A stretch of DNA of 64,000 nucleotides from contig NZ_FRAY01000003.1 in assembly GCF_900142475.1 (NCBI RefSeq), positions 1 through 64,000 of the forward strand, in the 5' to 3' direction. Numbering within the stretch: position 1 is the stretch's first letter; each line of letters opens with the position of its first letter. The notes beneath the pieces were generated by a model. The model made no database searches. It was given only the letters and a program-made list of their open reading frames with translations, and was not told where the DNA came from. The DNA comes from Fibrobacter sp. UWH4 (lineage in GTDB: Bacteria; Fibrobacterota; Fibrobacteria; Fibrobacterales; Fibrobacteraceae). Of this stretch, positions 37,980-51,382 are shown in pieces. The translations under genes were made by a program, and so were the position numbers.

Positions 37980-38429
37980 TTAGTACTGTTCGAGCTGAGT
38001 GTCGAAATGGTACTTTTCGTGGTAGTAGCTGAGCATTTCGCTTGTGCTGGTGAAGGCGCCCGCACGGATAGCGTTGCGGACTTCGGGGTCGTTGCGGGAC
38101 ATTTCGATAATTTTTGCATCTATGTCCTTGAACAGCAACTTGTTAGATGCCATAGCCACGTGGTTCTGGTTGTAGTCCAGGTGGTAGCTGCGTTCCAGCA
38201 TCTGGAAAAGCTCCGCCTGGCATGCGTTTTCGGGAGGGTTCTTCTTGACGATAGGCATATAGCACTTGTTGATGTAATCCTGCTTGTACGAAATAATCAT
38301 CTCGTCGATGGCAGGAATGTTGTGGTCCGAATCGTGGCTAGCGAGTTCTGCTTTGGGAGTGACAACACCGGAACATCCGGTAAGAAGGGCGGCGGTTATG
38401 GTTGCAAGAGCCAAAACTCTAAACTTCAT
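37980..38429 (-). CDS. Lipoprotein of unknown function
   Basis: 149 residues from ATG 38429, chosen because it gives a proper lipoprotein signal peptide (MKFRVLALATITAALLTGC, lipobox LTGC); a longer reading from 38480 adds a non-signal stretch. The mature part is helical and polar with two cysteines (NKCYMPIV, ENACQAEL) and no recognised domain. It stands alone, with its own terminator. Confidence 0.7.
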   Translation of the reverse strand: MKFRVLALATITAALLTGCSGVVTPKAELASHDSDHNIPAIDEMIISYKQDYINKCYMPIVKKNPPENACQAELFQMLERSYHLDYNQNHVAMASNKLLFKDIDAKIIEMSRNDPEVRNAIRAGAFTSTSEMLSYYHEKYHFDTQLEQY

Positions 38430-38627
38430 TTTATTTATCCTTTTTCTTTGTTGAAGCCAATTCCCTAATTCCGAAAACAAAATTATTTAAATGTCAATTT
38501 TTTGGCGAGGGGTCGGATGTAACAAATAGCTTACAACTGACCTAAAAAAACACTTAGAGAACACTTTTTGAGTGAGTTTGTGATGAGTGTCACTTGCGTC
38601 GAAGTGTTGTGTGTTTTTCAACAGGGG

Positions 38628-40160
38628 TTATCGATTCCGTACGGCATCGGCTGTGGGCTTGAACATGTAGAACCACTTAATCGGGTCGATTACTTTGTAT
38701 TGAACATTGCCGATAGACTTGTTCCCGTTACGGTCGATGATTCCCGTGACAACGTGGGCGTGGGGGCCTGTCGTGTGCCCTGTGAGGCCGACTGTTGCGA
38801 TGGGATCTCCGGCCATGACTTCTTGACCGTCCAGATAAAGTAACTGGTCGCAGTGCATGAAAATGACGACATCTTTTTTGCGCACAAGACCGATGACGAT
38901 TCCTCCGCGTTCATCGCGGGCGGTCCATGCCTTGGCGGCAAACGGCGCGAGTATGCGTGCTCCCTGACGGCTTGCTACATCGATGCCGTTGTGCTGTCTA
39001 AAATTCGCTGTGGCTTGGGGGTGGTAAAATTCCGTAATGTAGGCGACGCTGTCCGACACGATCGATGTCCAGTATTTCCAGGCGGCGCCGATGGAATCCG
39101 ATGCGGTGTTGCCGATGTAGTCGGGCCTCGAAAACTTGACGATGGTCCCTTCGGGAGGAACGTTTAATTTGTTCTTTTTCCAGGCGTTGGCAGGGTAGCC
39201 GTTTTCTTCGAGTGTTACCTTGATGTACTGCTGCACCATGCGCTCGTTGGTGATGATGGCGCTGAACCTTCCGATGGCGTAGCGGGCAATGCGTTGCAGG
39301 GTTTCCTTGCCGTCAAAGGTGTATTCGAACGAAGGCGCTATGGAAAGCTTATCGCGTTCGTGGATGCGGTTGCGCATGTTCGAAATTCCGGGTTCCGTTT
39401 CGGTCACGAACAGGAAGGGGAGCGCAATCACAAGTAAAAGCAACAGCGGGAAAATGGTCCTGAATACCTTGGAGGATCCGTCTAGCGGATTCTTCTCGAT
39501 AATTGAAATCTTGTGGAGTTGCTCGATAATCCGGGTGAATGCTTCGGGACTTGTTCTCCAATCGCAAAGCCTGATTTCCTTGTAGAAGGAATGGCTTCTA
39601 CGGACGGCTCGGTAGGCGTGGTAGAATTTCTTCTTGTTCGGTTTTTGCGGCAGGAGCCAAAGCAGGTTCGCCTTGTTAAAGTGGGGAAGGTCTTCGAGGT
39701 ATGCTGAAGCCTCGCTTACACTGTCTCCGTCGATCACGATCAGCCTTGAAATCAGCTTGGCGTAGTAGGCTTCTTCGTCGTTGATGTCCAGGGGTAAGAT
39801 GACGACGATTTGCGCGATGGCTTTCTTGATGTGCTGCAGATTGTGGTAAAGGTTCCGGAACTGGTCGTCGTCCTTGGGGAACGCCCTGGAGCCGGTTACG
39901 GTCCAACTTGAAGATTCTGAATTTAGTTTGTTCAGAATTTCCTGCGGAAGGGGCTTTTCGAAAAGAGCCTGGACCTCAATGGGGGCGTCACCTTTGAGGT
40001 GATTCTTTCCCGAAAAGTCTATGACCATAAAACGAGCGCCGGCATTCAATGCCAGCGCAAGATTTTGCAGAGGCTCAAGCGGAATCTCGTTTTCGCCGGG
40101 GAATGCGAAACTAGTTACTCCGCCTTGCCTGTACAGGTCGTTCAGGACCTTTCTCTGCAT
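38628..40160 (-). CDS. Single-pass membrane protein with periplasmic M23 (LytM) peptidase domain
   Basis: 510 residues. The ~240-residue N-terminal region is soluble and presumably cytoplasmic (FAFPGENEIPLEPLQNLALAL start). One membrane segment follows (~245-265, IFPLLLLLVIALPFLFV), then a periplasmic linker. An M23 domain at ~385-500 has HNGIDVASRQG (zinc His and Asp) and HAHV (catalytic HxH). The fold cuts peptidoglycan cross-links or, when inactive, activates amidases. A cytoplasmic sensor-like domain on an M23 protein is unusual. It is co-transcribed with the small gene 9 nt upstream. Confidence 0.8.
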   Translation of the reverse strand: MQRKVLNDLYRQGGVTSFAFPGENEIPLEPLQNLALALNAGARFMVIDFSGKNHLKGDAPIEVQALFEKPLPQEILNKLNSESSSWTVTGSRAFPKDDDQFRNLYHNLQHIKKAIAQIVVILPLDINDEEAYYAKLISRLIVIDGDSVSEASAYLEDLPHFNKANLLWLLPQKPNKKKFYHAYRAVRRSHSFYKEIRLCDWRTSPEAFTRIIEQLHKISIIEKNPLDGSSKVFRTIFPLLLLLVIALPFLFVTETEPGISNMRNRIHERDKLSIAPSFEYTFDGKETLQRIARYAIGRFSAIITNERMVQQYIKVTLEENGYPANAWKKNKLNVPPEGTIVKFSRPDYIGNTASDSIGAAWKYWTSIVSDSVAYITEFYHPQATANFRQHNGIDVASRQGARILAPFAAKAWTARDERGGIVIGLVRKKDVVIFMHCDQLLYLDGQEVMAGDPIATVGLTGHTTGPHAHVVTGIIDRNGNKSIGNVQYKVIDPIKWFYMFKPTADAVRNR

Positions 40161-40169
40161 GGTTTCTGG

Positions 40170-40580
40170 TTATGCCTTCTGGAAACCGCGGGGATAGCTG
40201 AAACCTGCCGGAGGTGCGGCGACGAACTTGTCTACCTGGAGGTAGAGTTCTTCGGCGGAAGAGGCGGGGTTAAAGTAGATTTCCTGGTTCCTGTTCTGGG
40301 TGCGGCCCTTGAGGGGTTCGCCGCGGCGGGAACGGCTCACAATGCCGAGCGGAAGCACTTCAAGAAGCGGAAGAAGGCCGAAATAGCGGAACAGGCTGAA
40401 ATTTTTCTGCCAAGTGGTGCGTTCGGCGAGAACGGCGAACGTGCCTTCGAAAATGGACTTCGTCTGAAGCAGTTCGTCAGAGGTCATTGTCACCAGTTCG
40501 TGGTTGGTGGGAAAGTTGTTCACGAAGTTGACCATGTCGCCTTTGAGGTAGTTGGCGTCGCAAAGGAATACGAATTTCAT
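40170..40580 (-). CDS. Hypothetical protein, first gene of the M23 operon
   Basis: 136 residues, no signal peptide, no recognised domain. It begins like a small alpha/beta protein (MKFVFLCDANYLKGDMVNFVNNF) and contains a hydrophobic patch (FRYFGLLPLLEVLPLGIV) and a Pro/Gly-rich end. The start follows AGGTA. With the M23 protein's cytoplasmic N-terminus next to it, it may be a cytoplasmic partner of that protein (inference). Confidence 0.6.
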   Translation of the reverse strand: MKFVFLCDANYLKGDMVNFVNNFPTNHELVTMTSDELLQTKSIFEGTFAVLAERTTWQKNFSLFRYFGLLPLLEVLPLGIVSRSRRGEPLKGRTQNRNQEIYFNPASSAEELYLQVDKFVAAPPAGFSYPRGFQKA

Positions 40581-40986
40581 TTTTTACCTAGCCTGTTTTG
40601 TTTGTTTAGATAAAAAATAGTTTTTGGGCAAATGATTGTCATCGGGCGAGACTGGCAAAATTGCTAAAAATGGAACTTTTTGTTCCGATTTAATGTAAAA
40701 TGTTTGTAAATTTTTTTGCAGACTCATAAAAATTGAAAAATGTGTAATAAAGGAAAATTTGGCCTTGAATTGCTAACTTGTTGATTGTCAATAAGTTACA
40801 AATATGAAAATTTTTCTTGCCGAATCAGGTTGCGTTTTTTTACGAAAAATCGGCTTTTTGACGCTTTTGGGCAGATAAAATCATTATATTTGACCTCGTA
40901 AAATTGCGCTCGGACTAGCGGGTGCGGTTCTCTATTTTGTGAAAGCAAAAGGTGAAGTTGGAAGAAGTTTTTATGGGAGATCATAA
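40581..40986 (+). other. 406-bp AT-rich promoter region of the giant repeat protein
   Basis: No coding frame. A TATATTTG element at 40885-40892 with TTTTTG about 24 bp upstream (40855-40860) is the best promoter candidate, giving a leader of ~85-90 nt with GGAAGAAG/GGGAGA near the ATG. The far half supplies the divergent M23 operon. Nothing else recognisable. Confidence 0.5.
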
Positions 40987-43900
40987 ATGAAACGAAAAAA
41001 TAGATCTGTAGCAGCAATATTGGCGTCTGTCAGTTTGCTGGCATCAGTGGGTGTAGCCCAGGAGGCGGAGAACTCTGCTCCTTCCGTGATGGGTATTCCG
41101 GGTGAATCCATCGATGAAGGCAAGAAATTTGCCCCGATTAAGTTGGACAAGTATGTTACCGATGAGGACAAAGCCGAAAAGATTAAGTGGTCCGTGTCCG
41201 GCAATAAGCAACTCAAGGTTTCTATTTCGCCTGAACGCGTAGCGACTATTGAAATTCCGGACCAGTATTGGAACGGTTCTGAAGATATCACCTTTATTGC
41301 AACTGATACCAAGGGCGCCTCGGGTTCCGAAACGGTGAACTTCAACGTGGAATCCGTAAACAACCCGCCTGAAGTCAAGCAGATTCCGGACCAGACCGTC
41401 GATGAAGGAAAGACCTTCGCGAAGATCAAGCTCGACGATTACGTGACCGACCCCGACCATCCGAAGAACCAGATTCTCTGGGAATTCGACATCTCTCCGA
41501 TTGGCAAGGACCAGGCCGACGGCGACCTGAACGTGGAAATTGACCCGAACCGTGTGGCTTCCGTGATTATTCCGGATCCGAACTGGTACGGCTCTGCAAA
41601 GATCAAGTTTACGGCTACCGACGGCGAATACGCTAGCGCCTCTACGGCCGCAAACTTTGTGGTGAAGCCGATCAACGATGCTCCGGTGCTCCAGAAGATT
41701 CCGGACCAGACCATCGAAGAAAAGAACGAATTCGAATCCATCAGCCTGACCGATTATGTAGCAGACGTGGATGACGATGTCATGAAACTCAAGTGGACCA
41801 TTTCGGGCAACAAGGACCTGAAGTTCGACATCGACAAGTATGGTTCTGCAAACATCAAGATCCCGAATGAATTCTGGAACGGCTCTGAAACCGTGACCTT
41901 CACGGCGACTGACCCGGACGGTGCGTCTGCCAAGGCGACCGCCAAGTTCACGGTCAAGTCCGTGAACGATGCTCCTGAATTCGTGCAGGAAGTCCAGGAT
42001 CAGACCATCGACGAAAAGCAGGAGTTCAAGCCCATTGAACTGGACAAGCTGGTCAAGGATCCCGATCATCCTTTCGAACAACTTAAGTGGACTGTTTCGG
42101 GCAACAAGGATCTCGCCGTCAATATCGCCGGCAAGAACGCCACCATCAAGATCCCGAACAAGATGTGGAATGGTTCTGAATCCATCAAGTTCAAGGTCTG
42201 CGACCCGGCCGGTGCTTGCGCCGAATCCGAAAACAGCTTCACGGTGAACTCCGTGAACGACGTGCCGCAGCTCGTGAAGCAGATTCCGAATCAGACCATC
42301 GACGAAAAGAAGACCTTCGCGAAGATCAAGCTCGACGAATACGTGAAGGATGCCGACCACAAGAATTCCGAACTCTCCTGGGAAGCTGACGTGAAGCACC
42401 AGGGCAAGGAACCGCAGTCCGGTACTTTGTCTGTAAATATCGGTGACGACCACGTTGCATCTATTGAAATCCCGGATCCGTACTGGAACGGCGCTGCTGT
42501 CGTGACCTTTACGGTGTCTGACCCCGAAGGCGCTTCTGTCAAGCAGGCTGTGACCTTCACGGTCAAGTCCATCAACGATATTCCTGTGTTCAAGAAGATT
42601 CCGGACCAGGCTATCGAAGAAAAGAACGAATTTGCCTCCGTGATGCTCGACGATTACCTCTCCGATGCCGATCACGATCTCTCCCAGTTGAAGATCGACA
42701 TTACGGGTAACAAGGACATCAAGGTCAACCTGAATAACAAGACTCGTGAAGTTTCTTTCAAGACTCCGAACGAACTCTGGAACGGTTCTGAAACCATCAC
42801 CTTTACTGCTACTGACCCCGATGGCGGCAAGGCTTCTACCCAGATGAAGCTTTCTATCAAGTCCATCAACGACCCTCCGACCATGAAGGACATTGCTGAA
42901 CAGTCCATCAAGGAAAAGGGCGAATTCAAGCCGGTTGAACTCGACAAGTATGTCGAAGACCTCGACCACACCAAGGCCCAGCTCAAGTGGACCGTGACGG
43001 GCAACCGCGAACTCAAGGTGTCCATCGACGGTAACCGCGTGATGAAGGTGACTCCGCCGTCTCCGCAGTGGAACGGTTCCGAAACGCTTACCATCAAGGT
43101 GAGCGACCCCGAAGGTGCTACCGATGAACGCTCTGTCGCTTACACCGTGGAATCCGTGAACGACGTTCCGGAATTCATCAAGCAGGTCGCTCCGCAGACT
43201 ATCAAGGAAAAGGGCCAGTTCCAGCCGATCAAGCTCGGTGAAATGGTTCGCGACCTCGACAACAAGCTTTCCGACCTCCAGTTCACGGTTGACGTGAAGT
43301 CTACCAAGGGCAAGGAAGCTGGTCTCACTGTTGAAGTTGATGCCCAGCATGTGGCCAACATCAAGATTCCGAACAAGTTCTGGAACGGTGCCGATGAAAT
43401 TACCTTTACGGTGACCGACCCGGAAGGTGCCAAGGCTGTGTCCAAGGCTCTCTTCACTGTGCAGTCCGTGAACGATGTGCCGACTCTCAAGAAGGTTCCG
43501 GACCAGATGATCGAAGAAAAGCATGAATTTGCTTCCGTCAACCTCGCCGAACTTGCTTCTGACCCCGACCACGCCTTTAAGGATCTCAAGTGGACGGTTT
43601 CTGGCAACAAGCAGCTCAAGATCGATATCGATAAGAACGGTGTCGCAACGATCAAGATGCCGACCAAGATGTGGAACGGTTCCGAAAAGGTGACCTTCAC
43701 GGTGACCGACCCGGAAGGCGCTTCTGCCAAGTCTGACGCCGTGTTCACGGTGAAGTCTATCAACGACCCGCCGGTTATGAAGGATATTGCTAACCAGACC
43801 ATCAAGGAAAAGGGTGAATTCAAGTCGATTGAACTTGACAAGTACGCCTCTGACGAAGACCACGATCAGTCCAAGCTCAAGTGGACCGTATCCGGCAACA

Positions 43901-46900
43901 AGCAGCTCAAGGTTGTGATCGACCCGAAGCATGTCGCTACGGTTACTGCCCCGAACAAGTTCTGGAACGGTTCCGAAGACATTACCTTCACGGTGACCGA
44001 CCCGGAAGGGGCATCCGACAAGCGTACGGTGAAGTTTACGGTGGAATCCGTGAACGACCTGCCTGAATTCGTGAAGCCCATCAAGGACCAGAGCATTCCT
44101 GAAAAGCGTGAATTCGCGATTATCAACTTGAACGATATCGTGAAGGATGCCGATCACAAGCCCGACCAGCTTTCCTGGAGCTTCGACGTGAAGCCGGCGA
44201 AGGGTGCACCGAAGAGCTACACTCCGCAGCTCAAGGTGACTGTGGATGGCCAGCGCATGGCTAAGATCGTGATTCCGGACAAGTACTGGAACGGCTCCGA
44301 AGAAATTACGTTCAAGGTGGAAGATCCGGATGGCGGCAAGGCCCATTGCACGGCTACCTTTACGGTGCAGTCCGTGAACGATGCTCCGACCATCGGCAAG
44401 ATCAACGACCAGATGATAAAGGAAAAGGAAGAATTCAAGTCTTTCAACCTGAAGCAGCTTATCAAGGATCCTGACCACGCCTATGATCGCTTGAAGATTG
44501 AAGTGACTGGCCAGAAGGATCTCAAGGTCTCTATTTCCAAGGACGGCGACGTTTCTATCAAGGCACCGAGCCCGCTCTGGAACGGCAACGAAAAGATCAC
44601 CTTCACGGTGACCGACCCGGAAGGCGCAACCGCCAAGGCGACTGCCGCATTCTCTGTGCAGTCTATCAACGATCCTCCGGTCATGAAGGATATTGCTAGC
44701 CAGACCATCAAGGAAAAGGGTAGCTTCAAGTCTATTGCTCTCGACAACTATGTCGAAGACCTCGACCATCCGAAGAACAAGCTGAAGTGGAAGATCGAAG
44801 GCGCCAAGGAACTCAAGGTCGCCATGGATGCTAGCCACAATGTGTCTGTGTTGCCGCCGAACCCGAACTGGCACGGCAAGGAAGCCGTCAAGTTCACGGT
44901 GACCGACCCGGAAGGTGCTTCTGATAGCCGCTCCGTGACCTTCACGGTGGAATCGGTGAACGATGCTCCGCAGTTCGTGCGCGAACTCAAGGATCAGTCC
45001 ATCGACGAAAAGAAGCAGTTCCAGCAAATCAAGCTCGACGATCTCGTGAAGGATCCGGACCACAAGAATTCCGAACTCAAGTGGACCTTCGACGTGAAGG
45101 CAAAGTCTGCCGCCGCTCCTGCCAAGGGCAAGAAGGGCGCTGCCGCTGAACCGGCTCCGTCTGCCAAGGATGGCCTGAGTGTCAAGGTGGACAACAACCA
45201 TGTTGCAACAATCGTGATTCCGAACAAGTTCTGGAACGGTGCTGCCGACATTACCTTCACGGTGACCGACCCGGAAGGTGCAAAGGCTTCCAAGACCGCC
45301 CATTACGAAGTGCGTTCCATCAACGACGCTCCGGTGATTTCCGCAAGCGCTCCGAAGGGTGAAACCATCCGTGAAAACGGCGTGTTCAGGACCATCGACC
45401 TTTCGAACCTCGCTACCGACCCGGACCACAAGACTGCCCAGCTCAAGTGGACTGTCTCTGGCAACAAGTTCCTCAAGGTGAATATGCGTAAGGACAACAC
45501 CGTCCAAATCGCTGTGCCGGATCCGCAGTGGAACGGCAAGGAAACGGTGACCTTCACGGTGACCGACCCAGAAGGTGCTTCTGCCAACCACAAGATGCAC
45601 TTCGAAGTGACCCGCGTGAACGACGCTCCGGTCATCGCCAAGAAGATTCCTGACCAGAAGATCAAGGAAAAGCAGCTCTTCAAGCAGATCAAGCTCGACG
45701 AATACGTGAAGGACCCGGATGACAAGCCGAGCGAACTCAAGTGGACCGTGACGGGCAACAAGCTCCTGAAGGCTGAAATTTCTCCGAGCCGCGTGCTTAC
45801 GGTTACGGCTCCGGACAAGAATTTCTGGTGCGCTCCGGAATCCATGGTTCTTATCGTGAAGGACCCGGATGGTGCCGAAACTTCTCAGATGGTGACCTTC
45901 GAAATCACCTCTGTGAACGACGCTCCGGTGCTCAAGAATATTCCTGACCAGAAGATCAAGGAAAAGGGCACGTTCAAGGAAATCGACCTGAACAAGTTCG
46001 TGCACGATCCTGACCACAAGCTCTCTGAATTGGTGTGGACGGTGAAGGTTGACAAGGTGAATGCCGCTCCGGCTGCAAAGCCTGCCAAGAAATCGGCCAA
46101 GAAGTCCGCAAAGAAGGGCAAGAAGGGTAAGAAGGAAGAAGAGGCCGAAGAACAACCGGCTCCGGCTCCTGTTGACGAATTCCAGGTGGAAATTGACAGC
46201 AAGAACATTGCTCGCGTGAAGATCGCCAACAAGTTCTGGAATGGCGAACGCAATGTGACCTTCACCGTGAAGGACCCCGAAGGCGCCTCTGATTCCAAGA
46301 CGGTGAACTTCAAGGTTGAATCTGTGAATGATGCACCGGAAATCAAGCCGATCGCCATCCAGAGCGTCCAGGAAAAGGAACGCTTCAAGCCGCTCGACCT
46401 CGCTCAGTACATCTCTGATCCGGACCACCAGCTGTCCGCTCTGAAGATTGAAGTGGCTCCGACCCGCGCCCTCAAGGCTTCTATCAATGCCAAGAAGGAA
46501 CTCGTCGTTTCTACTCCGAACAAGTTCTGGAGCGGAACCGAAAAGATCAAGATTGACGTTTATGACCCCGAAGGTGCTCGTGCTACTCAGCAGATCACCT
46601 ACGAAGTGGTGCCTGTGAACGATCCTCCGGTCATCAAGCACATTGCCGGCCAGAAGATCAAGGAAAAGGAAAAGTTCGAAATTGTCGATCTCTCCAAGGC
46701 TGCCGAAGACCCGGATAACAAGCCCAACGAACTCCACTGGACCGTGTCCGGCAATAAGGACCTCAAGGTGGATATCAAGGGGACGCGTGCCCAGGTGCTG
46801 ACTCCGAACCCGAACTGGTTCGGCAAGGAAACCCTCACCTTTACGGTGAAGGATATCGCCGGTGCATCTGCTTCCGCCAAGGCTACTTTCGAAGTCACTC

Positions 46901-48264
46901 CGGTGAACGACGCTCCGACCCTCAAGCCGGTACAGCCGTTCGTGATCGAAGAAAAGAGAACCTTTGCTCCGGTTGACTTCAGCAAGATGGTGAACGACCC
47001 TGATAACTCTCTCGAAGAATTGACCTGGACGCTCGACAACGATGTTCCGAATGTGAAGGGCAGGAAGGGTAAGGACGGTCCGGCCGTGAAGCATGAAATC
47101 AACTTCATGATTAACGAAAAGGGCCTGCTCCAGGCAGAAACTCCGAGTCCGTACTGGAACGGTATGGAAACGGTGACGGTGAACGTGTTCGACCCGGCTG
47201 GCGAAAAGGCTTCTGTCCAGGTGAAGTTCACGGTGAAGCCGGTGAACGACCCGCCGGTCGTGAAGAAGATTTCTGACCAGGAAACTCTGCAGGGTTCTGC
47301 CTTCAAGCCGATTAAGCTCGACCATTATGTTTCTGATCCGGATCACAAGAACACCGAAATCAGGTGGGCTGCTGCCGGTGCCAAGAATCTTGCTGTGCAG
47401 ATTAACGGAAGCCGCGAAGCCATCGTGAAGCCGAAGAAACCGGATTGGTTCGGTGAAGAAACCATCATCTTTACCGCTAAGGATCCGGCCGGCGCTTCCG
47501 ACAAGGCGATGGTGAAGTTTGTCGTAAAGCATGTGAACGCCGCCCCGATTATGCGCGACATTCCGGATGCAACGATCAAGGAAGATGACAACAATGGTGT
47601 AATCGCCGTGATCAAGCTTGACCAGTACGCACGCGACAAGGATCATCGTTTCGACGAACTCAAGTGGTCTTTCACTGGCAACAAGTTCCTTGAAGTGAAG
47701 TACGACAAGTACAAGAAGACCGCTACGGTTGCCCAGCCGCACCCGAACTGGAATGGCAAGCCGGAAAGGATTACCTTCACGGTGACCGACCCGGATGGCG
47801 CCAAGGCTTCTAAGTCTGCTCTGTTCACTGTGATTGCCGTGAACGATCCGCCGGTTGCTACTGCACAGACCTACATGACTCAGGAAGGTGAAGAACTCAA
47901 GGTGAGCGCCGCCGAAGGTCTGATGGCCGGTGTGACGGATGCCGATGGTGAAAAGCCGGTGTCTGTGCAGCTGGTGCAGAAGCCGCGCAACGGTAAGATC
48001 AACCTGAACGAACGTGACGGTTCCTTCACCTACATGCCGAACAAGGGCTTCAGCGGCCTTGACGAATTCAGCTTCAAGGTTCGCGATCCGGGTGGACTCG
48101 CCTCTCAGGTGACGACAGCCGAAGTCAATGTTTCCTTCAAGATGAAGGATCTCCGCGGTGGCGACACCAAGAAGAAGGCTGAACCGAAGAAGGAAGAGCC
48201 GAAGGAAGAGGAAAAGGCCCCGGCTAAAGGCAAGAAGAGGGGCAAGAAGGGCAAGCGCCGCTAA
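40987..48264 (+). CDS. Giant secreted Ig/cadherin-like repeat protein (22 repeats, triplet-organised)
   Basis: 2425 residues. Signal peptide (MKRKNRSVAAILASVSLLAS...VAQ), then 22 repeats of ~97-100 residues, each with P-x-x-x-x-I-x-DQ-x-I-x-EK, LD-x-Y/LV-x-DPDH, LKWTVSGNK, (N/D)-x-x-WNG-x-E and FTVTDPEGA...SVND. The acidic DPDH and DPEGA loops suggest calcium binding. A final tandem-95/cadherin-like domain (~2295-2390, GFSGLDEFSFKVRDPGGL) is followed by a Lys/Glu-rich tail (KKAEPKKEEPKEEEKAP...GKKRGKKGKRR). Repeats 2, 5, 8, 11, 14, 17 and 20 carry a loop insertion, longest and Lys/Ala/Pro-rich in 14 and 17. Likely a very long surface filament or adhesin; no sorting tail or membrane anchor is seen. 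Confidence 0.88.
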   Translation: MKRKNRSVAAILASVSLLASVGVAQEAENSAPSVMGIPGESIDEGKKFAPIKLDKYVTDEDKAEKIKWSVSGNKQLKVSISPERVATIEIPDQYWNGSEDITFIATDTKGASGSETVNFNVESVNNPPEVKQIPDQTVDEGKTFAKIKLDDYVTDPDHPKNQILWEFDISPIGKDQADGDLNVEIDPNRVASVIIPDPNWYGSAKIKFTATDGEYASASTAANFVVKPINDAPVLQKIPDQTIEEKNEFESISLTDYVADVDDDVMKLKWTISGNKDLKFDIDKYGSANIKIPNEFWNGSETVTFTATDPDGASAKATAKFTVKSVNDAPEFVQEVQDQTIDEKQEFKPIELDKLVKDPDHPFEQLKWTVSGNKDLAVNIAGKNATIKIPNKMWNGSESIKFKVCDPAGACAESENSFTVNSVNDVPQLVKQIPNQTIDEKKTFAKIKLDEYVKDADHKNSELSWEADVKHQGKEPQSGTLSVNIGDDHVASIEIPDPYWNGAAVVTFTVSDPEGASVKQAVTFTVKSINDIPVFKKIPDQAIEEKNEFASVMLDDYLSDADHDLSQLKIDITGNKDIKVNLNNKTREVSFKTPNELWNGSETITFTATDPDGGKASTQMKLSIKSINDPPTMKDIAEQSIKEKGEFKPVELDKYVEDLDHTKAQLKWTVTGNRELKVSIDGNRVMKVTPPSPQWNGSETLTIKVSDPEGATDERSVAYTVESVNDVPEFIKQVAPQTIKEKGQFQPIKLGEMVRDLDNKLSDLQFTVDVKSTKGKEAGLTVEVDAQHVANIKIPNKFWNGADEITFTVTDPEGAKAVSKALFTVQSVNDVPTLKKVPDQMIEEKHEFASVNLAELASDPDHAFKDLKWTVSGNKQLKIDIDKNGVATIKMPTKMWNGSEKVTFTVTDPEGASAKSDAVFTVKSINDPPVMKDIANQTIKEKGEFKSIELDKYASDEDHDQSKLKWTVSGNKQLKVVIDPKHVATVTAPNKFWNGSEDITFTVTDPEGASDKRTVKFTVESVNDLPEFVKPIKDQSIPEKREFAIINLNDIVKDADHKPDQLSWSFDVKPAKGAPKSYTPQLKVTVDGQRMAKIVIPDKYWNGSEEITFKVEDPDGGKAHCTATFTVQSVNDAPTIGKINDQMIKEKEEFKSFNLKQLIKDPDHAYDRLKIEVTGQKDLKVSISKDGDVSIKAPSPLWNGNEKITFTVTDPEGATAKATAAFSVQSINDPPVMKDIASQTIKEKGSFKSIALDNYVEDLDHPKNKLKWKIEGAKELKVAMDASHNVSVLPPNPNWHGKEAVKFTVTDPEGASDSRSVTFTVESVNDAPQFVRELKDQSIDEKKQFQQIKLDDLVKDPDHKNSELKWTFDVKAKSAAAPAKGKKGAAAEPAPSAKDGLSVKVDNNHVATIVIPNKFWNGAADITFTVTDPEGAKASKTAHYEVRSINDAPVISASAPKGETIRENGVFRTIDLSNLATDPDHKTAQLKWTVSGNKFLKVNMRKDNTVQIAVPDPQWNGKETVTFTVTDPEGASANHKMHFEVTRVNDAPVIAKKIPDQKIKEKQLFKQIKLDEYVKDPDDKPSELKWTVTGNKLLKAEISPSRVLTVTAPDKNFWCAPESMVLIVKDPDGAETSQMVTFEITSVNDAPVLKNIPDQKIKEKGTFKEIDLNKFVHDPDHKLSELVWTVKVDKVNAAPAAKPAKKSAKKSAKKGKKGKKEEEAEEQPAPAPVDEFQVEIDSKNIARVKIANKFWNGERNVTFTVKDPEGASDSKTVNFKVESVNDAPEIKPIAIQSVQEKERFKPLDLAQYISDPDHQLSALKIEVAPTRALKASINAKKELVVSTPNKFWSGTEKIKIDVYDPEGARATQQITYEVVPVNDPPVIKHIAGQKIKEKEKFEIVDLSKAAEDPDNKPNELHWTVSGNKDLKVDIKGTRAQVLTPNPNWFGKETLTFTVKDIAGASASAKATFEVTPVNDAPTLKPVQPFVIEEKRTFAPVDFSKMVNDPDNSLEELTWTLDNDVPNVKGRKGKDGPAVKHEINFMINEKGLLQAETPSPYWNGMETVTVNVFDPAGEKASVQVKFTVKPVNDPPVVKKISDQETLQGSAFKPIKLDHYVSDPDHKNTEIRWAAAGAKNLAVQINGSREAIVKPKKPDWFGEETIIFTAKDPAGASDKAMVKFVVKHVNAAPIMRDIPDATIKEDDNNGVIAVIKLDQYARDKDHRFDELKWSFTGNKFLEVKYDKYKKTATVAQPHPNWNGKPERITFTVTDPDGAKASKSALFTVIAVNDPPVATAQTYMTQEGEELKVSAAEGLMAGVTDADGEKPVSVQLVQKPRNGKINLNERDGSFTYMPNKGFSGLDEFSFKVRDPGGLASQVTTAEVNVSFKMKDLRGGDTKKKAEPKKEEPKEEEKAPAKGKKRGKKGKRR

Positions 48265-48324
48265 TCCATAAGTGGCCTCGCTCTGCGAGCTTCTACCATA
48301 AATTTGAGTAAAGCTTAATAAGTG

Positions 48325-48352
48325 AAAATCCCGCTCTTTGAGCGGGATTTTT
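48325..48352 (+). terminator. Intrinsic terminator after the giant gene
   Basis: AAAATCCCGCTC TTT GAGCGGGATTTTT, a 12-bp stem with a T run. Confidence 0.9.
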
Positions 48353-48514
48353 GCGTTTTTTGGGAATTTTTCTCCCGAAGTGGCTGTTTGGTGTTGAAAG
48401 GTTCAAAACGGAAAAAACTTGCAGAAGGCTTTTTTGCATCGTTTTTTGCCCCTGAAATATATTTTTGAATTGGATGCAAGGGCCTGTTGCCCATTGTAGT
48501 TTAGGGATGAATTT

Positions 48515-51382
48515 ATGAAAAAAGGATTGTTTGGTGCTTTTGGACTTAGCCTGGCCGCTATCATCGGCATGCAGGCGACTGCCGCATACTCTGCTGAAAA
48601 GGCGGCAGATTTCAGCTGGAGCAACGTGAGCATGGGCGGGGGCGGATTCGTCTCCGCCGTGATCGCTTCTCCGGTCGACAAAGGGCTGTTCTACGCCCGT
48701 ACCGACGTGGGCGGCGCGTACCGCTGGAACGAATCGACTGCCCGCTGGGAATCGATGATGGACTGGGTCGATGTTTCCGAGCGAGGCCTTTTGGGCATTG
48801 AAGCCATTGTCGTTGATCCGCAGGAATCGGGCGTTGTGTATATGGTGGCGGGAACCAGTTACTGGAACAACGGCCGTACGGCGTTCCTCCGCAGTAGCGA
48901 CAAGGGTGAATCTTGGGATGTCCTTTACACTTGGGACGAAGACGGTGCCAAGGGGGCGAAAGTGGCACGCTTTGGCGCACACGGTAACGGCATGGGCCGC
49001 GGAAACGGTGAAGCCTTGGCGGTCGACCCGAACGATTCCAAGATTATGTTCTACGGCTCCAAGAACAAGGGCCTCTGGAAATCGACGGATAACGGAACGA
49101 GCTGGAGCCATGTGGATGCTTGGACCAAGGCCGCCGGGAGCGATACGACCTGGAATGGTTCGGGATTTAGCTTTGTGCAGTATGCTCCGGGCAGCTCCAA
49201 GGTGCTTTACGCCGGATTCCTACGTGAAGGGACGACGGCCAAGGGCACGTTCGAAAACGTGTTCACCTCGACCGACGGCGGTGCAAGCTGGCAGGCGCTC
49301 CCGATTCCGGATTCATTGCGCAGCACGGCCGGCGGGAGCATTGTGCGCCTGATGCCGCAGCGTGCGGTGGTTTCGGGCGACGGAAAAACGATGACGGTGA
49401 CCTTTGCCGATGGCGCCGGGCCGCATTCCATGATGTGGGACGAAGGCTGGGGCATGATTTACGATGGTTTTGGTCGCGGTGCGGTGCTGCAGCTTGATGT
49501 GGCTTCGGCGACTTGGTCCGACGTTTCTCCGGAAAACTTCCTGGACGAAGGCGGTGACGCCAAGTACGACAAGGTGGACGTGAAAGGCATGGTCGACTGC
49601 GAAGCGACTGGCGGCAAGACTTGCGAAGATTATTACCCCTACATTGCTCCTTATGGCGGCATTGCTATCAATCCGAAAAATGCCAACGAAATGGTGGTGA
49701 CCACTGAAGGTTACCGCGGTCCGCAGTTCTGGTACACGGCTACAAGCGACACCAGCGGCAAGTGGAGCGACCAGTGGGGTACTAACATTTACCACACGAC
49801 CGATGGCGGCAAAACCTGGATTGCAAGCTTCAAGTACTATTGGATGGAAGGTGGTTTCTACCCGACGACGAAGCAGATGGATGCCAACGGAATTGGCTGG
49901 ATGCATAATGGTTCTATTCACTGGTCCGGTAGCGTTGCCATGGATCCGTTCGACAACAACCGCGTCTTTGTGACTTCGGGTAACGGTATTTTCCGCTGCG
50001 ACAACCTGAGCGATTATGTGTACAAGGAAGCGGAAAATTCTTGGGAAGAACCGCAGCTCACCATGAACCAGGTGTGGCATTTCTCGGCGCATGGCGTCGA
50101 AGAAACGGTGCCTTTCGAAGTGGTGAGCATTCCGGGTGGCCCCATGATTTCGATTATCGGCGACTACGACGGATTCCGTCACGATGACATTGCAAAATAT
50201 CCGGCATTCAGGCACAAGACGAATGTTGGCGGCGATTATGTATCGTTGGGTACGACGCAGGGCCTTGCTTATGCTCCCAAGAGTGGCAAATTGGCCAAGG
50301 TGGCTGACAAGCGTGCCTACGAGGGCCAGTACAATGACATTCCCATTGCTCCGGTGCAGTATTCCCTTGACTCGGGCAAGACTTGGACGGTGGAAACCTA
50401 TACAGGACCTGACAAGAACGCTGCCAAGGGTACTGTGGCTCTTTCGGCAAAAGGTACATACACCATCTGGGTTCCGATGGAAGGAACGACCGATGTCTAC
50501 CGCAATTACAACGGCACGACTTGGGAAAAGGTGACGGGAATCGATAACACCGCCTACGTGGTGGGCGATCCTGAAAACGACGACGTGTTCTACGCCTACG
50601 CCAAGGCGGACGGCAAGTTCTACAAGAGTACCGATGCGGGCGCAAGTTTCAAGGCAGTGAGTACGCCTGGTGAAAGCGCGTTCAAGAAGTTCCGTGCCAT
50701 TCCGGGCTACGAGGGTGACTTGTGGTTGCCTGTCGCTATTCAGGATCGGTCGAACGGAACGCCGGCAAGCGGAAAACTTTTGCATTCGACCGATGGCGGT
50801 GCTACCTGGGCTGCGGTTGAAGGCGTCGGTTACTGCGAAGCGGTGGGTTATGGCGCACCCAAGGAAAAGGGTGGCTACCCGGCAATTTACGTTTTCGCAA
50901 CAGTCGGTAAAGTGACGGGTGTGTTCGGCTCTGACGATAAGGGTAAAACCTGGACTCGCGTCAATGACGACGGTCACGAATACGGCGGCCTTGCAAACGG
51001 CGAATTCGTGATGGGCGACATGAATACTTATGGCGTTGTGTACATGAGTACGGCTGGCCGCGGCATTGCAGCTCGCGTGCCGAGCGACTGGAACATGGGT
51101 TCCTCGAGTTCTGAAGGAAATACGAAGATTGCTCCGTCTGCTAAGGTGATTGCTTCGGCCTCGGTAACTTATGCAAACGGTAACCTAGAACTGCACTTGA
51201 ATGCAACCGTTGCTCGCGTGAGCGTGTTCGACATGCGTGGCAAGAAGATTTCTAGCCGCTATTACAGCAGCTCTGCCTCGGTGCCGCTCAAGGAACTGGT
51301 GCGTGCCAAGGGCAGCTATTTTGTTCGAGTCGATAACGGCAAGAAGGTGCTGTTCGCAAACCGCGTGATTGTGACGCGATAG
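48515..51382 (+). CDS. Secreted GH74 xyloglucanase with C-terminal sorting-type tail
   Basis: 955 residues. Signal peptide (to ~27), then the GH74 tandem seven-bladed propellers (~32-860). The start SWSNVSMGGGGFVSAVIASP and LFYARTDVGGAYRW are diagnostic; D64 in TDVGG is the likely catalytic base, and a candidate acid is in the GDYDGFRHDD segment. BNR/Asp-box turns recur (SSDKGESWDVL, STDNGTSWSH, TTDGGKTW, SDDKGKTW). GH74 enzymes cut the glucan backbone of xyloglucan. The last ~75 residues (VSVFDMRGKKISSRYYS...VLFANRVIVTR) form a sorting-type tail. It has its own terminator. Confidence 0.94.
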   Translation: MKKGLFGAFGLSLAAIIGMQATAAYSAEKAADFSWSNVSMGGGGFVSAVIASPVDKGLFYARTDVGGAYRWNESTARWESMMDWVDVSERGLLGIEAIVVDPQESGVVYMVAGTSYWNNGRTAFLRSSDKGESWDVLYTWDEDGAKGAKVARFGAHGNGMGRGNGEALAVDPNDSKIMFYGSKNKGLWKSTDNGTSWSHVDAWTKAAGSDTTWNGSGFSFVQYAPGSSKVLYAGFLREGTTAKGTFENVFTSTDGGASWQALPIPDSLRSTAGGSIVRLMPQRAVVSGDGKTMTVTFADGAGPHSMMWDEGWGMIYDGFGRGAVLQLDVASATWSDVSPENFLDEGGDAKYDKVDVKGMVDCEATGGKTCEDYYPYIAPYGGIAINPKNANEMVVTTEGYRGPQFWYTATSDTSGKWSDQWGTNIYHTTDGGKTWIASFKYYWMEGGFYPTTKQMDANGIGWMHNGSIHWSGSVAMDPFDNNRVFVTSGNGIFRCDNLSDYVYKEAENSWEEPQLTMNQVWHFSAHGVEETVPFEVVSIPGGPMISIIGDYDGFRHDDIAKYPAFRHKTNVGGDYVSLGTTQGLAYAPKSGKLAKVADKRAYEGQYNDIPIAPVQYSLDSGKTWTVETYTGPDKNAAKGTVALSAKGTYTIWVPMEGTTDVYRNYNGTTWEKVTGIDNTAYVVGDPENDDVFYAYAKADGKFYKSTDAGASFKAVSTPGESAFKKFRAIPGYEGDLWLPVAIQDRSNGTPASGKLLHSTDGGATWAAVEGVGYCEAVGYGAPKEKGGYPAIYVFATVGKVTGVFGSDDKGKTWTRVNDDGHEYGGLANGEFVMGDMNTYGVVYMSTAGRGIAARVPSDWNMGSSSSEGNTKIAPSAKVIASASVTYANGNLELHLNATVARVSVFDMRGKKISSRYYSSSASVPLKELVRAKGSYFVRVDNGKKVLFANRVIVTR

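Follow-up and report, generated by a model that had tools for sequence, protein, structure and literature searches.

We found that the open reading frame at 40987-48264 (+) of the window, the whole 64,000-nt stretch of Fibrobacter DNA that was analysed, encodes a giant array of 23 domains. The results show that its three-domain super-repeat was duplicated several times before the order diverged and was later deleted once as a unit. The architecture is real and deeply conserved across an order, with a period of three and one clean super-repeat deletion. Giant repeat proteins usually change their length quickly. In this array, length and register become testable functional traits in a plant-fibre-degrading gut bacterium, and the envelope proteins that Fibrobacter uses for fibre contact are still poorly understood. 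In the literature covered, which was partial, we found no published description of this protein or of such a three-domain super-repeat, and the genome, proteome and transcriptome papers on strain S85 did not name it under the terms searched.

The protein has 2425 aa, a mass of 267.8 kDa and a pI of 5.6, and the nearest public contigs were those of Fibrobacter succinogenes and Fibrobacter sp. MAGs. A signal-peptide-like segment is followed by 23 tandem-95/Big_9 domains and a Lys-rich tail. The protein is a member of the tandem-95/Big_9 group, with scores above the curated profile cut-offs: the NCBIfam tandem-95 repeat NF012211 matched 22 stretches with 652 bits (cut-off 90), and Big_9 (PF17963) matched 20 stretches with 571 bits (cut-off 23.6). 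The preliminary description counted 22 repeats; segmentation and profiles gave 23, the last being a divergent, classic Big_9 domain. The only other clear multi-domain tandem-95 protein of this genome (L085, G000 contig 5, about 135,400-136,600, minus strand) has 938 aa and a few such domains. The features of the gene are as follows.

40858..40887 (+), promoter-like site TTGACG-18-CATTAT (consensus match only)
40987..41061 (+), putative signal peptide (MKRKNRSVAAILASVSLLASVGVAQ...), from the translation, judged by eye with an approximate cleavage site; same kind of N-terminus in orthologs
41071..41961 (+), triplet 1, repeats 1-3 (segmentation; Big_9/tandem-95 matches)
41962..42864 (+), triplet 2, repeats 4-6 (segmentation; structure model)
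42865..43758 (+), triplet 3, repeats 7-9 (segmentation)
43759..44664 (+), triplet 4, repeats 10-12, missing from the 20-repeat clade (ortholog comparison)
44665..45615 (+), triplet 5, repeats 13-15 (segmentation; structure model)
45616..46614 (+), triplet 6, repeats 16-18 (segmentation; structure model)
46615..47532 (+), triplet 7, repeats 19-21 (segmentation)
47533..48126 (+), repeats 22 and 23 (segmentation; profile match)
48157..48261 (+), C-terminal tail, basic and of low complexity, net charge +9 (translation; ortholog comparison)
48322..48354 (+), strong terminator-like hairpin directly 3' of the stop codon, 15 pairs and a T-run (sequence)

Because a promoter-like site precedes the start and a terminator-like hairpin follows the stop, the gene looks like a single-gene transcript. 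A 2232-aa antisense ORF at 41044-47742 (-) was rejected as a gene: the sense-strand codons TTA, CTA and TCA occur 0, 0 and 1 times, respectively, and their near-absence, which leaves no antisense stops, explains its length. Three divergent genes lie upstream at 37980-40580 (-) and encode a 136-aa protein (highly conserved, 62-96%, without a Pfam match), an M23 peptidase and a small lipoprotein-like protein; they stay beside the giant gene in most genera of the family. Downstream, 48515-51382 (+) encodes a BNR/sortilin-type (GH74-like) protein with a T9SS sorting domain. It adjoins the giant gene in close relatives and in few other loci, and functional coupling of the two genes was not supported.

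The period of three was most visible in the loops. Loop length was counted as the residues between the D-x-D and W-x-G motifs, relative to loop-less repeats. Repeats 2, 5, 8, 11, 14, 17 and 20 carried 8, 8, 6, 10, 23, 40 and 16 extra residues, respectively, and the other repeats -1 to +1 residue, in agreement with the earlier claim that loops are confined to these seven. The loop coordinates given before agreed to about 5 nt with the measured midpoints (41510, 42410, 43310, 44210, 45136, 46115 and 47068), and the markers described with them, MKDIA in repeats 7, 10 and 13 and K[IV]PDQ...EEK in repeats 3, 6 and 9, were present. If 7 loops were placed at random among 22 repeats, the probability of all sharing a single phase of three would be 6e-5.

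41494..41526 (+), loop of repeat 2, SPIGKDQADGD, acidic, sequence-conserved, 8 aa extra (7-10 in orthologs)
42394..42426 (+), loop of repeat 5, KHQGKEPQSGT, neutral, extended hairpin
43297..43323 (+), loop of repeat 8, KSTKGKEAG
44191..44229 (+), loop of repeat 11, KPAKGAPKSYTPQ
45097..45174 (+), loop of repeat 14, Lys/Ala/Pro-rich, predicted disordered
46051..46179 (+), loop of repeat 17, Lys/Ala/Pro-rich with KKGKKGKK, predicted disordered
47038..47097 (+), loop of repeat 20, basic

All 58 measured orthologs, of which 54 are distinct and which come from the sister family and seven genera of the family, had loops in phase 2 only, and fragments from two further genera agreed. In orthologs, loops 2, 5, 8 and 11 are short and of near-constant length, and the sequence is also kept in loop 2 (GKDQADGDL) and loop 5 (KHQGKEPESGTL). 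Loops 14, 17 and 20 are long (22-50 residues in the measured segment), variable in length and sequence, Lys/Ala/Pro-rich and basic. The loop-bearing domain is itself Big_9, since repeat 5 alone scored 35.6 bits (cut-off 23.6). The Gly of the GNK turn is almost invariant (98-100%) in phase-1 and phase-3 domains, which also share the invariant Glu (E73) of WNGSE, whereas in phase-2 domains the Gly is lost where the loop enters and the Glu is mostly lost. The super-repeat therefore consists of at least two structural subtypes of domain, one with the tight GNK turn and Glu (phases 1 and 3) and one with a protruding loop (phase 2).

The triplet was also detected in the repeat cores. Loop-free core identity at lags 3, 6 and 9 was 0.494, 0.473 and 0.452, respectively, compared with about 0.43 at other lags, and 0/20,000 label shuffles reached the observed modulo-3 contrast. 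When the contrast was averaged over 15 proteins of the order, with the columns around the loop removed, it was strong in repeats 1-14 (p 0.0002) and absent in repeats 14-22 (p 0.38). A tree of 195 repeats, built on only 79 columns and hence with low support on single forks, had 16 phase-label changes where shuffling gave a mean of 31 (12 versus 24 for repeats 2-14, 5 versus 5.7 for repeats 15-22). The expected grouping of repeats by position modulo three was therefore strong in repeats 2-14 and not measurable in repeats 15-22. Repeat similarity, the repeat tree and the natural loss of exactly one triplet all support the idea that duplication proceeded by triplets. Of the "about seven" duplications proposed, the first five triplets are borne out; in repeats 15-22 the loops are in register without detectable core grouping, and loops 17 and 20 could come from an older duplication or from later insertion.

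The array is old. DNA identity between triplets is 51-67%, at which no TRF array would be expected, and TRF detected none in the giant gene. Codon identity at identical residues hardly differed with distance (0.651 at lag 3, 0.646 at lag 1), and recent gene conversion among the repeats was rejected; silent sites are saturated, which indicates that no recent homogenisation took place.

Matches were obtained in 59/61 Fibrobacter genomes searched, some of them partial or merely another, weakly similar protein. Outside Fibrobacter, other genera of this family and one sister family had the giant gene; the matches in another three families of the class were all weak. Within the family, no giant-gene match was found in the genomes of genera g4 and g2, though SprA was present, which suggests loss or a different envelope. 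SprA matched in all 126 genomes of the class, and T9SS co-occurrence was therefore uninformative as a clue. Most orthologs, those of the sister family and of outgroup genera among them, have 23 repeats (one is truncated, with 22 repeats recognised), and 12 have 20; in this comparison between species, no other number was found. In the two 20-repeat proteins mapped in detail, repeats 1-9 correspond to 1-9 and repeats 10-20 to 13-23, so repeats 10-12 are missing. On a tree rooted on the sister family, the 12 proteins form one Fibrobacter clade (support 100) with one change. These results indicate that 23 repeats is the ancestral state and that this clade lost repeats 10-12. The comparison of triplet number between relatives, proposed with the first description, thus showed across species that the unit lost was one whole triplet. 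Many ortholog sequences came from MAGs, in which short-read assembly could collapse repeats; we consider this unlikely because many species agree, one genome (G104) is a single contig, and triplets with 51-67% identity are separable by assemblers.

Could all this be the neutral outcome of one early triplet array, in which loops mark phase 2 by ancestry and the Lys/Ala/Pro tracts are low-complexity drift? The wide differences in length and sequence among loops 14, 17 and 20, together with the background level of codon identity at matched residues, would fit. However, loops 2, 5 and 8 hold their length and partly their sequence across genera, the charge trend described below recurs in all genera, and in 58 proteins neither phase 1 nor phase 3 ever acquired a loop. 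We therefore regard a neutral origin as improbable.

The predicted fold of the protein is a tandem beta-sandwich, cadherin-like rod. The AlphaFold2 model of repeats 4-8 (m8bc568c0cce1; pLDDT 90.6) showed five beta-sandwiches, with loops 5 and 8 as longer hairpins, and in the model of repeats 13-18 (mca29bc53fba4) loops 14 and 17 had pLDDT under 50. The predicted interdomain geometry (pTM 0.41) was too low in confidence to place the loops on one face of the rod. The top PDB fold matches were cadherin and protocadherin ectodomains (best VIA Z 11.9 over 286 residues, rmsd 9.9). Acidic junction motifs (E, DxD, DPEG, VND) were found in nearly every repeat.

Charge was distributed only partly as first described. 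The mean net charge of the loop segments from loop 2 to loop 20 was -1.8, 0.1, 1.9, 3.3, 3.4, 3.2 and 5.1, respectively (58 proteins), with a per-protein median Spearman coefficient of 0.83, whereas the corresponding segments of phase 1 and phase 3 gave -0.17 and 0.06; loop length accounts for part of the trend. Core charge was -5 to -7 at repeats 1-6 and between -1.7 and +0.9 at repeats 14-19 and 21-22, with two exceptions: repeat 20, which lies in the basic third, had -5.9, and repeat 23 had -2.2. The tails of orthologs add +4 to +12. This shift from an acidic N-terminal to a basic C-terminal part recurs in every species of all genera. "Charged patches at regular intervals" was only half right: loop 2 is acidic, loop 5 is neutral, and charge rises towards the C-terminus as a gradient. 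The pattern is a polarity along the rod rather than a series of regular patches.

Such polarity might let the protein assemble with itself, the acidic N-terminal half of one molecule pairing with the basic C-terminal half of its neighbour and the triplets setting the stagger. In all species the two halves tend to opposite charge, and the whole-triplet deletion keeps the register; both agree with this. An electrostatic gradient would also suit envelope docking, however, and we think self-assembly unlikely.

We tentatively favour, at somewhat less than even confidence, a cadherin-like filament of the envelope that has a fixed length, is stiffened by Ca2+ and docks with its basic C-terminal part on an anionic envelope polymer. 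After Sec export, the protein would form a filament of the cell envelope or surface of nearly fixed length, roughly 100 nm if each of the 23 domains spans about 4-4.5 nm. As in cadherins, the acidic residues of the E, DxD, DPEG and VND motifs would bind Ca2+ at each junction and make the rod stiffer. In the basic C-terminal third, the tail and the long, disordered, Lys-rich loops may attach it electrostatically to LPS, peptidoglycan or capsule; this third and the tail would be the likeliest docking part, and anchoring by positive charge is plausible. The acidic N-terminal two thirds would protrude or form bridges, and the folded short loops may serve as contact sites at every third domain, about 13 nm apart. 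A DNA pattern for KGKKGKK matched one other gene with a similar tail. This gene (L089, G000 contig 4, about 208,300, minus strand) encodes a 190-aa membrane-anchored protein with nearly the same tail (PAKAAKGKKGKKGKKR), which hints at a shared, putatively envelope-binding tail.

No match to the T9SS C-terminal sorting domain (TIGR04183/PF18962) was found in the giant protein with Pfam and NCBIfam profiles, and a periplasmic location is possible. No lipobox or LPxTG was detected, and Pfam and NCBIfam gave no ligand-binding or anchoring module, although binding is still possible without such a match. The label "adhesin" is therefore unproven.

A surface adhesin or stalk, with the rod projecting from the cell and its loops or N-terminal domains binding plant cell wall or other cells, is possible but rather doubtful. 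Giant proteins built of tandem Ig-like or cadherin-like domains commonly act as adhesins, and cellulose contact is essential to F. succinogenes. Foldseek also matched an RTX adhesin extender (6xi1), and VIA-align matched the binding region of SraP (4m00). Two other "cadherin" proteins, FSU_2931 and FSU_2932, were found in the F. succinogenes envelope proteome (PMC4619616); at 22 kDa and at 318 kDa with pI 4.7, respectively, neither corresponds to the giant protein (268 kDa, pI 5.6). However, the profile search detected no carbohydrate-binding or lectin domain, no conserved CAZyme is linked (the downstream GH74-like gene was found in 5/42 flanking loci, many with a short 3' flank), and the length is almost fixed across the order, unlike that of the length-variable "periscope" proteins (PMC8201768).

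The near-fixed domain number and its change by whole triplets suggest that length and register matter, as they would in a scaffold or ruler whose loops must stay in register. The conserved pattern and length speak for a structural ruler or scaffold built into the protein, more than for an adhesin that is free to vary. A bacterial counterpart of a titin-like ruler, a polar rod of nearly fixed length whose triplets space its contact loops periodically along the envelope and which changes only by whole triplets, has in our view a low probability.

Among known systems, the repeats belong to the domain group of tandem-95 (NF012211) and Big_9 (PF17963) proteins. To our knowledge, tandem-95 proteins have not been described with a triplet that carries phase-specific loops, with an almost constant number of repeats or with a gradient of charge. 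Like cadherin and protocadherin ectodomains, the giant protein has beads-on-a-string beta-sandwiches with acidic junction residues; it differs in its low identity (about 11-19%) and in that no cadherin-type membrane anchor was seen, and its Ca2+ binding is only predicted. The basic terminal domain of Fibrobacter enzymes (BTD/FPm-1) is also a basic C-terminal region, which was proposed to anchor them to the cell surface and has since been proposed as a T9SS signal (PMC6851124, PMC3079729). That region is longer and overlaps the T9SS signal TIGR04183, whereas the tail of the giant protein is of low complexity, about 35 aa long and without a TIGR04183 match. Bacterial rods are also known from SasG, whose E-G5 array alternates repeats of two types, and from the "periscope" surface proteins, whose length varies between strains (PMC4458895, PMC8201768). 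The giant protein, in contrast, keeps 23 (or 20) repeats across species and genera, with one change on the tree. The A-band of titin contains 7- and 11-domain super-repeats in register and has been argued to be a molecular ruler (PMC7427331). Titin differs in domains, organism and partner, the giant protein being without a known periodic partner, but in both a higher-order domain pattern is held in register.
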